From a virus: a stretch of 28,465 nt of DNA. The DNA is taken from positions 1 to 28,465 of IMG/VR virus record IMGVR_UViG_3300037200_000367, one strand, 5' to 3'. The notes below the pieces were generated by a model. It had not been told where the DNA came from. It ran no database searches and worked only from the letters and a program-made list of their open reading frames with translations. The translations under genes and the position numbers were made by a program. Shown here piece by piece: positions 1,536 to 26,051 of the stretch (within the stretch, counting starts at the first letter, position 1; each line of letters starts with the position of its first letter).

Positions 1536-1562
1536 CGAGGGGTCCAGTACCGCGGGCTGTTG

Positions 1563-1612
1563 CATTTAGGCCATCAGTTCTGATGTCATCACAGAATGAA
1601 GAAATCATCGCT
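1563..1612. repeat. 50-bp operator-like repeat, copy 1
   Basis: These 50 bases match 23455-23504 at 45 positions without a gap; the first 23 are identical. The shared core contains the dyad CATCAG-TT-CTGATG, followed by another CATC half-site. This copy covers the last 33 bases upstream of the double-HTH gene and its first 17 coding bases (the ATG is at 1596). The second copy lies directly upstream of terS. A regulator binding at its own start and at the packaging genes would explain the arrangement; a packaging-site role is an alternative. Confidence 0.85.
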
Positions 1613-2213
1613 AGAACAGATACCCGCAGTTGTGGCTAGCGTCTCGCCTTCCATTCTCGATAGCGAGTGGCTGACCATGACCGAAATCATGAAAGTCCTC
1701 GACAAGTCGCGCAGCTCAGTCGAACGCCTAGCGGCTGCTGGGGTCATTGCGACCAGAGTGGAACCCCGCCCACACCGCAAACCCGAGCGCATGTACAGCG
1801 CGACCGATGGGAAAAAAGTGGCGGCGAACGAACGCGAAACGGGAGTTCCTCTGCGCTTCGCGAAGCCGCCGGTTTCAACACAACTGGCGATTCCGATGGA
1901 GGCGATTTCATCACTGCGTGACGTGACGACGGGATTGGGAAATGCAGCTACGTCATCACTGCGCGAGCTGATGAAGGAATGGCAAAATATGCCGGATCGC
2001 ATCGGGCCGCGCGAAAAACTCTGGCTCACAATCGACGAAGCGGTAGAACTATCGGGCCGCTCGTACGCGTGGTTGTTGCGGGCGTGTCGGGAAGGACTGA
2101 TTACGGCAGAGAAGGATAGTGGGTGGAAAATACTGCGTCACTCGCTTGAAGCGTTCACGGGTGAGTCCACTCGCAACTCCAAGTTGCTGCGCCACGTGGC
2201 GGCCGCGAAATAA
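1596..2213 (+). CDS. DNA-binding protein with two helix-turn-helix domains, 205 aa
   Basis: This is a probable sequence-specific DNA-binding regulator. The N-terminal part (about residues 24-60: EWLTMTEIMKVLDKSRSSVERLAAAGVIATR) and the C-terminal part (about 140-185: LWLTIDEAVELSGRSYAWLLRACREGL, then GWKILRHSLEAF) each look like the winged HTH of the excisionase/MerR/HTH_17 type. A linker with two similar SSLR segments joins them. A two-domain protein could contact both halves of a dyad. The start codon lies inside the 50-bp repeat that also precedes terS, so autoregulation and control of the late operon is the simplest hypothesis. It is the last gene of the left plus-strand block; a terminator follows at 2363-2397. 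No clear Shine-Dalgarno precedes the ATG. Confidence 0.72.
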   Translation: MKKSSLEQIPAVVASVSPSILDSEWLTMTEIMKVLDKSRSSVERLAAAGVIATRVEPRPHRKPERMYSATDGKKVAANERETGVPLRFAKPPVSTQLAIPMEAISSLRDVTTGLGNAATSSLRELMKEWQNMPDRIGPREKLWLTIDEAVELSGRSYAWLLRACREGLITAEKDSGWKILRHSLEAFTGESTRNSKLLRHVAAAK

Positions 2214-2217
2214 AGCC

Positions 2218-2252
2218 CATTCAGTCCATCAAGTCTGCTGTGATGACGAAAT
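2218..2252. repeat. Degenerate third copy of the 50-bp repeat
   Basis: The segment starts CATTCAGTCCATCAAGTCTG, resembling the beginning of the 50-bp repeat, and ends with GATGACGAAAT, which is identical to 23487-23497. Relative to the terS copy it carries a few substitutions and appears to lack about eight bases in the middle. It lies just after the stop of the double-HTH gene. The similarity is partial and could be a decayed or weaker binding site. Confidence 0.4.
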
Positions 2253-2310
2253 GCGGAAATTGGGTCTAGAGTGCCAAACCGTGTTTTCCTTCGGTACACT
2301 GAAACCGACC

Positions 2311-18083: not shown

Positions 18084-19013
18084 CTAGCCGAGCGTGTTGC
18101 TGTCCTCGTCGCGCGCCCGGAAGTAGCAGTCGATATCGTGGCGCAGTTGCGGCTTGTTGCCTGCCAGCTCGAGAACGCCGTAAGTGTTGCGCTTCAAGTC
18201 GGCCGAGGGATCGAAATGGTTGCGCTCGAGAATTTGCCAGCGGTCCACGTAAGCGCGCTTTTCTTTACTCCCGTGCCAGAGATGTTCGATGGTGCCGGGC
18301 ACGTAGCCGATATTTTGCGCGATGTGCGCCACGGCACGCGACTCCCAGCGAAACAGCGGGTCCGAGTACGCTGTGTGGAGCAGCGAGCCCGGGATACTGT
18401 CCTCGACGCGCCCGATCAGCGCCATCGCCATGTGATGATCGGCAGCTCCCATGGCCGCCGTTTCGACAAGGCCGCCCAGCCATTCGAGCGCCAGGCGCGT
18501 GTACGCCCAGGCGTAGCCGGGATGGCCGAACTGGTAGCTACCCGCCGCGTTGGGTCCTTGCTGAATTGGTTTGTCCTCGTGAACCTGCCGGCAAAACGAG
18601 CGATGCGCCGCCAGATGATCGTCGTTCGGCCCCAGGTCATAGCAATCGCTCCAAGGCTGCACGACGTCATACTGCTGGAGCGCGTGCACCGTTTCGGCGG
18701 CCCAGCCGTGCTTGCGGAAGCGGATATCGGCATCGAATGTGGCGATGTATTTCGCGTTCGGGAGGCGGGAAATTGCGATGGCCAGCAGATTTTCTTTGTT
18801 CCACACGAGGCTCTTCGCCCGAACCGGAATATGCTGGACGCCCGGTGTTCCGGCGCAGTCGTAGCCGCGGTCGCCATAGGCGCACTCGACGACGGTGAGT
18901 TGCACGCCGCTTTCGAGCATGTGCTGCTCGAATTGACGGTAAAGAGAAATGCGGCTCTGCCAGCGAATCGGGTTCGCGATCGCAGTGACGACATGGAGTA
19001 AGTTAGCTTGCAT
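18084..19013 (-). CDS. GT-A-type glycosyltransferase-like protein, 309 aa
   Basis: The core reads like a glycosyltransferase of the GT-A fold: HVVTAIANPIRWQSRISLYRQFEQHMLESGVQLTVVECAYGDR at the N-terminus, LVWNKENLLAIAISRLPNAKYIATFDADIRF with the probable DxD metal site D94-A95-D96, and EHLWHGSKEKRAYVDRWQIL near the C-terminus, where the HxWHG segment suits a catalytic or product-binding His. It lies between the prohead protease and the capsid gene, where HK97-like phages normally have no such gene. Candidate roles are capsid decoration, modification of a host glycan or DNA, or a cargo function. The start is uncertain: ATG 19013 leaves a 26-base gap after the protease stop; TTG 19049 would overlap it. 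No ribosome site is strong. Confidence 0.78.
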   Translation of the reverse strand: MQANLLHVVTAIANPIRWQSRISLYRQFEQHMLESGVQLTVVECAYGDRGYDCAGTPGVQHIPVRAKSLVWNKENLLAIAISRLPNAKYIATFDADIRFRKHGWAAETVHALQQYDVVQPWSDCYDLGPNDDHLAAHRSFCRQVHEDKPIQQGPNAAGSYQFGHPGYAWAYTRLALEWLGGLVETAAMGAADHHMAMALIGRVEDSIPGSLLHTAYSDPLFRWESRAVAHIAQNIGYVPGTIEHLWHGSKEKRAYVDRWQILERNHFDPSADLKRNTYGVLELAGNKPQLRHDIDCYFRARDEDSNTLG

Positions 19014-19039
19014 AAAAAAGTTTGGGTTGAATTTCTGGA

Positions 19040-21350: not shown

Positions 21351-23141
21351 TTAGATAAACAGCGGAGTGAAATACCCTTGTGCTTGCGGCTCGCCGCCAT
21401 TCCCCAGCAATGCTCTCGACAAAGCCATCAGCGTGGCGACAACGCCGTCAATTTTTTGCTTCCGGTCTTTGGGCTTATTCGGCTTCACATTGCCGTTGCG
21501 GTCCTCATGGCAGACCGTGTTGCCGATGCACCAAGCCAGCACCGGATTGCCGTCATGCTCCACCCGGCCGTCCAGAATTAACGCTTCCAGCGTCTTCGTC
21601 GGATCGCTCAAAAACCGCGTTGTCTGCGGAATCTCCACAACAGGAGACGTTGCTTCCTTCGCTAGCCGGTTGATCGTCGAGCCCGCGTTCCATTGATCGA
21701 TCGCGATCTCACACACGGCAAATTGCTCGATATCCTGCACCGCGTCATCCGTCACCAGGTCGTAGTCGACCATCGAACCCTTGGTGGCCGTCAGGTAACC
21801 GCTCTTCTCCCACCCCGCGTAATAGGCCAGTGCCGGATCGTTCACTCGATCCTCGGGCAAATAGAAACGCGGGAAGATGCCGTAAGTGGACTTGCCGTCG
21901 TCGCCGGTTCTTTTGAAGACCTTGACGACAGCCGTCAAATCGATCTTCGAAGAAAGATCGATTCCCAGATAGCTAGGACAGCCAGCGAAATCCTCCGGTT
22001 TGAGATCCGGATTACCCAGCGCGTTCCACTTCGCCACGTTGAAATACGCCGAGTCCGTTCCGACCCAGACGTTCAAGTGCCGCGTCAGAAATGAATTTGT
22101 TAACCGCGCGTTGGCGATCGCATTCTTTTGCTGAGTCCGCAGGAACTCAGGAAAAATGCTGACACCCCAACCCGGATTCGCTTTCCGCAGCGTCTCTTCC
22201 GAGGTCCAATCGTCGCCTTCATCAATCCCGTACAGCAGCGCAAACAGTTCCGGACGGTCGAAGGTTCCGTCGAGCACCTTATGCGTTTCTTCGACCATTG
22301 CGTAACACGGTCCCTCGATCGAAGAACCCGCCGTCGAAATGAAAACCCCCAGCGGTTGCTCCCGCGCCGCGCAACCCGTCCTGAAGCAAGAAATCAGCGT
22401 GTCATCTAAATGCTGATGGACCTCATCCATCACGTAGCAGCTCGGACTCTGCCCTTCACCCGGATCTCGCACCACCGGCATGAACTTCCCGCCGGCCTCG
22501 AGCAGCAGCTGCCCAGACCAGATCTGCAGATGAAACGCGCTCTTCAGAGCCGGTTGAATTCTGACCATCTGCTTCGCCGGCGTGAAAACTTCCAGCGCCT
22601 GGCGCAGTGTCCGCGCGCCGCAGTACACCTCCGGGAACGCCTCGCCATCCGCACAGGTCATGTAGAGCGCGATCGCCGCCGCGAACAAAGACTTACCCGA
22701 TTTTCTGGGCAGCAAAAGAAACATCTCCCGGCAACGCCGCAATCCACTCTCACGATGCAAGAATCCAAACACCGCGCAAATCACGAAACACTGCCAGCCC
22801 TGCAGAACAATCGCTTCCCGTCGCTGCCGCCACACCCCTTTGGTATGCGGCAGCATTTCGATGAACTTACCCGCCCGATGCGCTTTCTGCTTCGAGTAGA
22901 TATAAGGACTCTCCGGAGACGCGCAATCCAGGAGATCGTCGAGAAAACGCTGGCAGGCGATACGGATCCACTTGCACGCCGGAATCCGGCCCGTGGTTAC
23001 GTCCTCGCAATAGCGAGCCGCGATCGCGCTGAAGTCTTTAGCGGTCGGCAGCTTTCCGGCACGTGCTTTGGCTTTAGCTGGCGAATTCGCTGAACGGGTT
23101 TTTGTCGTCTTTCGTCGAGACCGGCTGGGCAACTTTGGCAC
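21351..23141 (-). CDS. Terminase large subunit, 596 aa
   Basis: This is the DNA-packaging motor and nuclease. Walker A is LPRKSGKS at 144-151, Walker B is CYVMDEVH with D239/E240, and a likely coupling motif STAGSS lies near 269-274. The nuclease domain begins with YLGIDLSSKIDLTAV, where D395 is a probable metal ligand, and ends with further conserved Asp/His-rich segments such as WNAGSTINRL and NPVLAWCIGN. The architecture matches TerL of the HK97/P27-linked group. The gene overlaps terS by 68 bases, and ATG 23141 is the only early start. The basic N-terminal 45 residues are variable. The head-filling partner is the TerS at 23074-23457. Confidence 0.95.
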   Translation of the reverse strand: MPKLPSRSRRKTTKTRSANSPAKAKARAGKLPTAKDFSAIAARYCEDVTTGRIPACKWIRIACQRFLDDLLDCASPESPYIYSKQKAHRAGKFIEMLPHTKGVWRQRREAIVLQGWQCFVICAVFGFLHRESGLRRCREMFLLLPRKSGKSLFAAAIALYMTCADGEAFPEVYCGARTLRQALEVFTPAKQMVRIQPALKSAFHLQIWSGQLLLEAGGKFMPVVRDPGEGQSPSCYVMDEVHQHLDDTLISCFRTGCAAREQPLGVFISTAGSSIEGPCYAMVEETHKVLDGTFDRPELFALLYGIDEGDDWTSEETLRKANPGWGVSIFPEFLRTQQKNAIANARLTNSFLTRHLNVWVGTDSAYFNVAKWNALGNPDLKPEDFAGCPSYLGIDLSSKIDLTAVVKVFKRTGDDGKSTYGIFPRFYLPEDRVNDPALAYYAGWEKSGYLTATKGSMVDYDLVTDDAVQDIEQFAVCEIAIDQWNAGSTINRLAKEATSPVVEIPQTTRFLSDPTKTLEALILDGRVEHDGNPVLAWCIGNTVCHEDRNGNVKPNKPKDRKQKIDGVVATLMALSRALLGNGGEPQAQGYFTPLFI

Positions 23142-23457
23142 GATTCGACGGGTCCAAACCGAACTTCGACAGCAGGCTCACCAGAGAACTCAACTCACTG
23201 CCAGTCAAGGTCTCCGTGCGATAGCGGTGCATCAGGCCGGCAATCAATTCAAAACTGAAGCGGTCAGCGTTCCTGGCGACACCCAACGGCAAAAGAGCAG
23301 CCAGCTCTCTCCAAATTTGCTTCCGCGCCGGGTCGAGATGCGCTGGAGGCGCTCCCAATTCGCCGGTCGTTTTCGGATCTTTCCGCCGCCGCGCCGGATC
23401 CCGGTCGAACGACCCCTTGGCCTCCAGCAGCGCGGTTGGTTTACGCGGTCTAGCCAT
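23074..23457 (-). CDS. Terminase small subunit, P27 family, 127 aa
   Basis: This is the probable DNA-recognition subunit of the terminase. It has the P27-type pattern: basic N-terminus (MARPRKPTALLEAKGSFDRDPARRRKDPKTTGELGAPPAHLDPARKQIWRELAALLPLGVARNADRFSFELIAGLMHRYRTE), then LVSLLSKFGLDPSNRAKVAQP, matching the FGLxPxxRAKV motif of the family. Its 3' end overlaps terL by 68 bases. The ATG at 23457 lies at the edge of the 50-bp repeat, and the preceding stop TAA of a very short upstream frame touches it. The intergenic region upstream, with the dyad, is the best place for a packaging site or late operator. Confidence 0.9.
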   Translation of the reverse strand: MARPRKPTALLEAKGSFDRDPARRRKDPKTTGELGAPPAHLDPARKQIWRELAALLPLGVARNADRFSFELIAGLMHRYRTETLTGSELSSLVSLLSKFGLDPSNRAKVAQPVSTKDDKNPFSEFAS

Positions 23458-23504
23458 TTAGGCCATCAGTTCTGATGCCATCACAAGATGACGAAATCAC
23501 CGCT
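23455..23504. repeat. 50-bp operator-like repeat, copy 2 (upstream of terS)
   Basis: This matches 1563-1612 at 45 of 50 positions without a gap. The first three bases are the complement of the terS start codon. It carries CATCAG-TT-CTGATG, and immediately after it a second, shorter inverted pair, CATC-ACAA-GATG. The five differences are TtoC, GA to AG, A to C and T to C. In coding terms the two copies read MKKSSL and MTKSPL on the plus strand, so the substitutions change amino acids and the similarity is better explained as a DNA signal. Confidence 0.87.
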
Positions 23505-23621
23505 TTGCTCGAAAAACCCTCAAAATGCGAAAAAGTTCCATTTTGCGTAAGCGTTAATTGTGGCTGCGGTGCGGTCGTAGGACGTTCGGGCCCTAACTCG
23601 GTCGACCCCCTACCCCGTCCC
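23505..23621. other. HNH-terS intergenic stretch, cos/pac-like candidate
   Basis: No gene is visible here. Next to the repeat is an AT-rich inverted repeat, CAAAATG (23521-23527) with CATTTTG (23539-23545), separated by an 11-base loop. Further on come GGGCCC and pyrimidine-rich runs. In HK97-like phages the cos site commonly lies between the HNH gene and terS, so this is the position to expect a terminase-recognition site. No nick site can be named from sequence alone. Confidence 0.45.
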
Positions 23622-25566: not shown

Positions 25567-26051
25567 AAAGTTTCCACCAGGCAACTGAGCGGCACAGACC
25601 GGAAAATCAAGCGCACAAAACACTCCCGGTCCGCCTCGTCTTCCACGGGTTCACCCGCCTTTTGCTCCACATCCTGCCGGGGCGTTAATCGGCGGTGAGA
25701 CCACACCCGGCTCTCATGAATTTGTTCGACGTAGGAGTAGCGTGTGCCGAGGAGATTAGTCGACCGCAGCGGATTCCCACCGCCGGATTCCCTGAACTGC
25801 GCACTCACAATCCGTCCCTGCCGGTTGCGCACCGCCACGATGAGTGACAAACCCAGCAACCGCTTGATGGCGTCCGGCGAATAACCTCGCAGCCGCACTC
25901 CAGAGGCAGCGTAGGTTGGTATGCGTTTCTCTAGTTTTTTGGGCGCGGGACTCAAAAGAGGTGCCTCACAAAAGTGAAAGCGCGCGACAGAAGTATGGCT
26001 AAAGTCTGCCGGCAGTCGGAAATGTTTAACGAGCCTCCGGTGGGCTTCCAT
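25563..26051 (-). CDS. Hypothetical protein at the head of the late operon, up to 162 aa
   Basis: I do not recognise this protein. The C-terminal part from about residue 42 (KRIPTYAASGVRLRGYSPDAIKRLLGLSLIVAVRNRQGRIVSAQFRESGGGNPLRSTNLLGTRYSYVEQIHESRVWSHRRLTPRQDVEQKAGEP) looks genuine and its stop overlaps the holin ATG as ATGA. The N-terminal 40 residues are less convincing: the same bases encode another good-looking frame on this strand and one on the opposite strand. The true start may be a non-ATG codon downstream, for example TTG at about 25963. It is the first gene of the late transcription unit. Confidence 0.6.
   Translation of the reverse strand: MEAHRRLVKHFRLPADFSHTSVARFHFCEAPLLSPAPKKLEKRIPTYAASGVRLRGYSPDAIKRLLGLSLIVAVRNRQGRIVSAQFRESGGGNPLRSTNLLGTRYSYVEQIHESRVWSHRRLTPRQDVEQKAGEPVEDEADRECFVRLIFRSVPLSCLVETL

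Follow-up and report, generated by a model that had tools for sequence, protein, structure and literature searches.

Classical autoregulated phage repressors bind an operator that lies over their own promoter, and the late activators of the P2 Ogr type are zinc-finger proteins. For the repressors of cluster A mycobacteriophages (L5, TipsytheTRex), more than twenty 13-bp operators or stoperators have been described, which are oriented with transcription (PMC9283540).

The locus described here lies in a window of 28,465 bp of viral DNA (IMG/VR record IMGVR_UViG_3300037200_000367), which is part of a prophage in the Bryobacterales MAG palsa_124, a genome of 9.4 Mb. The sole other phage found with a close two-HTH gene is L006 (IMG/VR 3300014499_000010), a related Bryobacterales phage. 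The relevant genes and copies of a repeat element in both phages are:

1563-1612, plus strand: copy A, over a promoter-like region and the first codons of the two-HTH gene; 45/50 to copy B
1596-2213, plus strand: gene of the two-HTH protein (205 aa), with HTH_17/excisionase-like DNA-binding domains
2218-2261, plus strand: copy C, after the two-HTH gene; 34/50 to copy A (compared over 2218-2267)
23074-23457, minus strand: terS, PHROG 83 terminase small subunit (E 1.2e-21)
23455-23504, plus strand: copy B, flanked by a cos-like region and by terS, whose start codon it overlaps
L006 9943-9981: A', at the two-HTH start codon; alignable to A with one extra base
L006 10864-10899: C', after the operon of the two-HTH gene; 86% identical to C over 36 bp

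As with a classical autoregulated repressor, copy A covers a -10-like region and the start of the regulator's own gene, but here further sites lie after the operon and at terS, and binding is predicted. With the cluster A stoperators the locus shares a small regulator with two DNA-binding domains (here two HTH_17 stretches, a likeness of architecture) and asymmetric sites that are repeated over promoters and at gene boundaries. It differs from them in having three long sites in the whole genome instead of more than twenty, and in orientation: A and C run along the transcription of the HTH gene, whereas B, on the plus strand, is reversed relative to the transcription of terS on the minus strand. 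The likeness to P2 Ogr-type activators is a lead only, in that the regulator gene ends the tail gene cluster and one site lies near late and packaging genes; the protein is of the HTH_17 and not of the zinc-finger type, and no site is placed, as an activator's would be, ahead of a recognised late promoter. The reading preferred here, with a probability of about 0.6, is that an element of ~36 bp is a phage-specific, autoregulatory operator of the two-HTH protein that was copied to the cos-terS boundary. It would represent a candidate regulator-operator pair, open to testing, in a prophage of the little-studied phylum Acidobacteriota.

Copies of the repeat element

The sequence-only reading had reported an ungapped match of A and B at 45 of 50 positions, and direct comparison bears this out at a level far above chance. 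The mismatches fall at positions 24, 32, 33, 38, and 46, so that the first 23 bases are identical. A and B form the best 50-mer pair within the window, followed by an unrelated pair with 36/50 matches in a repetitive tail gene, and the best 50-mer pairs in two simulated windows had 32 and 33 matches. The similarity is confined to these 50 bases; the flanks match at chance level only (10/50 and 13/50), leaving sharp ends. Both copies contain the start codons that they had been said to overlap, that of the two-HTH gene (1596) in A and that of terS in the first three bases of B (23457-23455, minus strand). Copy C begins just past the two-HTH stop (2213), and the degenerate copy recognised there in the earlier description is real, since it has the counterpart C' in L006.

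The dyad CATCAG-TT-CTGATG, to which attention had been drawn, is indeed exact in A and B and occurs nowhere else in the window, but the unit shared by all copies is a longer one. In the other copies CATCA and TGATG are present with a different spacing, and aligning A, B, C, and C' without gaps reveals an asymmetric unit of ~36 bp in common. Judged by this alignment, the conserved unit is this asymmetric element and not the 14-bp dyad. Its consensus is about CCATCAnnTCTGATGTnATGACGnAATGAnGAAATC, in which ATGANG-like units are spaced by 8 bp and CATCA/TGATG half-sites occur. An RNA hairpin as an explanation of A, B, and C was rejected, as folding was no better than for shuffles.

Conservation of the element and prophage setting

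Contig PMSX01000177.1 of MAG palsa_124 contains the window sequence, identical as far as compared, and a second contig of this MAG (G002:C179) overlaps the right end of the window by 839 bp and holds the remainder of the integrase. The sequence CAAACTCCGATTGT is common to both prophage ends (G002:C10 near 30371 and C179 1815-1831) and is the likely att core; these ends sit between a LOG-family gene and an acyl-CoA synthetase-like gene, the latter named by reading its translation.

With as many as three mismatches allowed, a consensus covering A, B, C, and C' was scanned against 257 genomes of the order. Exact matches in the MAG palsa_124 genome number three, all within this prophage (A, B, and C), and the six further matches across the 257 genomes have three mismatches each. 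With a shorter consensus, a scan of IMG/VR matched the L006 contig alone, on which the close two-HTH homolog is likewise found; three unrelated matches from an exact 18-mer scan of IMG/VR were set aside as apparently coincidental. A profile of the five copies gives E-values of 2e-9 to 9e-9 for A, B, C, and C' and of 2e-6 for A', all five having been used in building it, and the next match has an E-value of 0.003. The latter is a candidate element-like sequence (L028 14341-14371) at the end of a small ORF inserted in another prophage of palsa_124, and a match at L006 14806 (E 0.23) is a candidate only.

The alignment of C with C' stands where little else aligns between the window and L006; A' and C' compared directly show no significant similarity. 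No copy was found at other early promoters, around the HTH gene of the distant paralog prophage G002:C348 (27%), or near more distant two-HTH relatives (about 25-33%) in Bryobacterales genomes, and in distant homologs no significant repeats between start and end of the gene were detected. Element and close two-HTH gene were both found only in the same two phages, so the element travels with the gene in this sample of two; as only two phages with the close gene were found, conservation rests on one comparison. Conservation in relatives, a point raised by the sequence-only reading, is partial: L006 keeps the element at the gene start and after the operon, but the terS copy is absent.

The positions of the copies also bear on a role as excisionase or integration sites, with the HTH protein acting as Xis. 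The HTH domains are similar to the excisionase family, and in L006 the two-HTH gene comes after int, but the likely att core lies ~4 kb from A, and beside int at the other end, and no element is close to either att, which makes this role highly improbable.

The two-HTH gene and its start

The two-HTH protein matches Pfam HTH_17 in two stretches (E 8.9e-11), and its L006 homolog is 58% identical. A tblastn search of phage and plasmid collections with this protein gave no match, and its AlphaFold model (pLDDT 42.6) is too poor for a fold search. Two further features belong to this gene:

1560-1595, plus strand: promoter-like layout TTGCAT-N18-TGTCAT-N6-ATG, with the same spacing in L006
1905-1988, plus strand: possible internal element-like sequences between the HTH domains; tentative

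The layout in L006 is TTGATT-N18-TGTAAT-N6-ATG, which gives the common form TTGnnT-N18-TGTnAT-N6-ATG. An in-frame TGA lies five codons ahead of the ATG at both A and A', and the Shine-Dalgarno match at the two-HTH gene is weak in both phages. Since both phages share the layout and have no clear ribosome site, the element covers promoter-like sequence; this points to a promoter from which a leaderless or nearly leaderless transcript would start, with the element overlapping it. The hexamers at A are weak (8/12) and a consensus promoter scan called neither A nor A', so that we infer the promoter at A from the conserved spacing.

For the operator reading, the binder, repression, and any effect on terS are likewise inferred. 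The ~36-bp operator would most likely be bound by the product of the two-HTH gene beside it. Binding at A would cover the -10-like sequence and the start codon and thereby repress the two-HTH gene (autoregulation), and C, located after the operon, may serve as an auxiliary site for looping or as a road-block. Alternatively, the element could act as a phage-type promoter at several places instead of as an operator, in line with its asymmetry, its conservation over ~36 bp, and the -10-like TGTnAT six bases ahead of the ATG at A and A'. This is unlikely, because B is directed away from terS, C' in L006 leads into an inverted terminator, the -35-like TTG of A is missing at both B and C, and no phage RNA polymerase gene was noticed.

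An internal element site within the two-HTH gene is possible. Among the codons for amino acids 103-127, 17/20 are identical between the window and L006 genes, compared with 39/87 elsewhere (p 0.001, the region having been picked post hoc; best-window permutation p 0.03), and the internal sequences are weak profile matches (E 0.55 and 1.7). Sites at both gene ends, and perhaps inside, are reminiscent of origins within an initiator gene, so that the copies could be iterons of a replication origin or a partition site in or around the HTH gene. Very little probability is given to this, as both phages have a separate putative replication gene (L017 3849-5111 and L006 6908-8371, both guessed from position and sequence and named by no family hit), B is 22 kb away, and the internal sites are weak.

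The copy at terS

Copy B separates terS from the following region:

23530-23600, minus strand: cos-like region, with GGCCCGAACG and CGCAAAAT common to PotUPM1, and CGCAAAAT also in IPK

PotUPM1 (45%) and IPK (42%) are the relatives in TerS. If cos is located upstream of terS, the sharing of GGCCCGAACG and CGCAAAAT would be as expected for cos there. Neither PotUPM1 nor IPK has an element between CGCAAAAT and the terS ATG, a scan of viral contigs with TerS yielded no relative, and L006 has no detectable homolog of the window TerS; its TerL (402 aa) differs from the terminase large subunit of the window. Because it is absent from the TerS relatives, and L006 has no TerS match and a different TerL, B is regarded as a lineage-specific copy. 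It looks like a recent duplication of A, which in this lineage would have landed at the cos-terS boundary.

These comparisons also weigh on the alternative offered by the sequence-only reading, a terminase-binding site, in which the element would be a cosB-like TerS site that has additional copies close to the HTH gene. The position of B between the cos-like region and terS would suit such a site, but the element is not conserved with the terminase: PotUPM1 and IPK have the cos-like motifs without it, and L006 retains A' and C' next to a different TerL and without this TerS. A terminase-binding site is therefore very unlikely.

The common operator that had been proposed for the regulator gene and the packaging or late genes stands in one half. 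That the two-HTH gene has an operator of its own agrees with the element at the gene start and after the operon in both phages and with A on the conserved promoter-like layout. Control of terS and late genes finds no support in relatives, as B occurs only in this prophage, is reversed, lacks the -35-like TTG, and no promoter was found at B. Copy B may place terS under the regulator's control or be inert; bound there, the regulator could lower terS transcription or translation, or have no effect. Control of packaging by the regulator via B is possible, and B would then be a candidate example of operator duplication by which a packaging gene is drawn into a regulatory circuit that already existed. 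It is doubtful that a 50-bp operator module copied to cos-terS subjects packaging to a two-HTH regulator of early or lysogenic type, one that also controls itself from sites at the two ends of its gene and perhaps within it.

A sub-case compatible with the operator reading is that A and C are operators and B is a neutral recombination scar without a role for terS. The lack of B in relatives, the sharp 50-bp ends, and the failure to find a promoter speak for a scar, but B has kept the consensus, and the changes in its right half shift the sequence toward C' (ATGACGAAA). This sub-case is tentatively entertained, at somewhat less than even odds.

Neighbouring and shared sequences

Downstream of copy C, positions 2295-2395 form a structured module of 100 nt with a strong terminator at its end (fold z -3.86). 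An Rfam search of the window, including this module, gave no family at gathering score. The module is 75% identical in L006 (11019-10917), where it is inverted relative to the HTH gene. It is followed at 2462-2921 by a DUF4160 gene and an adjoining DUF2442 gene, which may form a toxin-antitoxin pair. Elsewhere, a gene of the structural cluster (18084-19017), glycosyltransferase-like on reading, has 79% nucleotide identity to L006 despite the different terminases, and 38 bp upstream of a small HTH gene (26012-26049) are 95% identical to L006 30-67.
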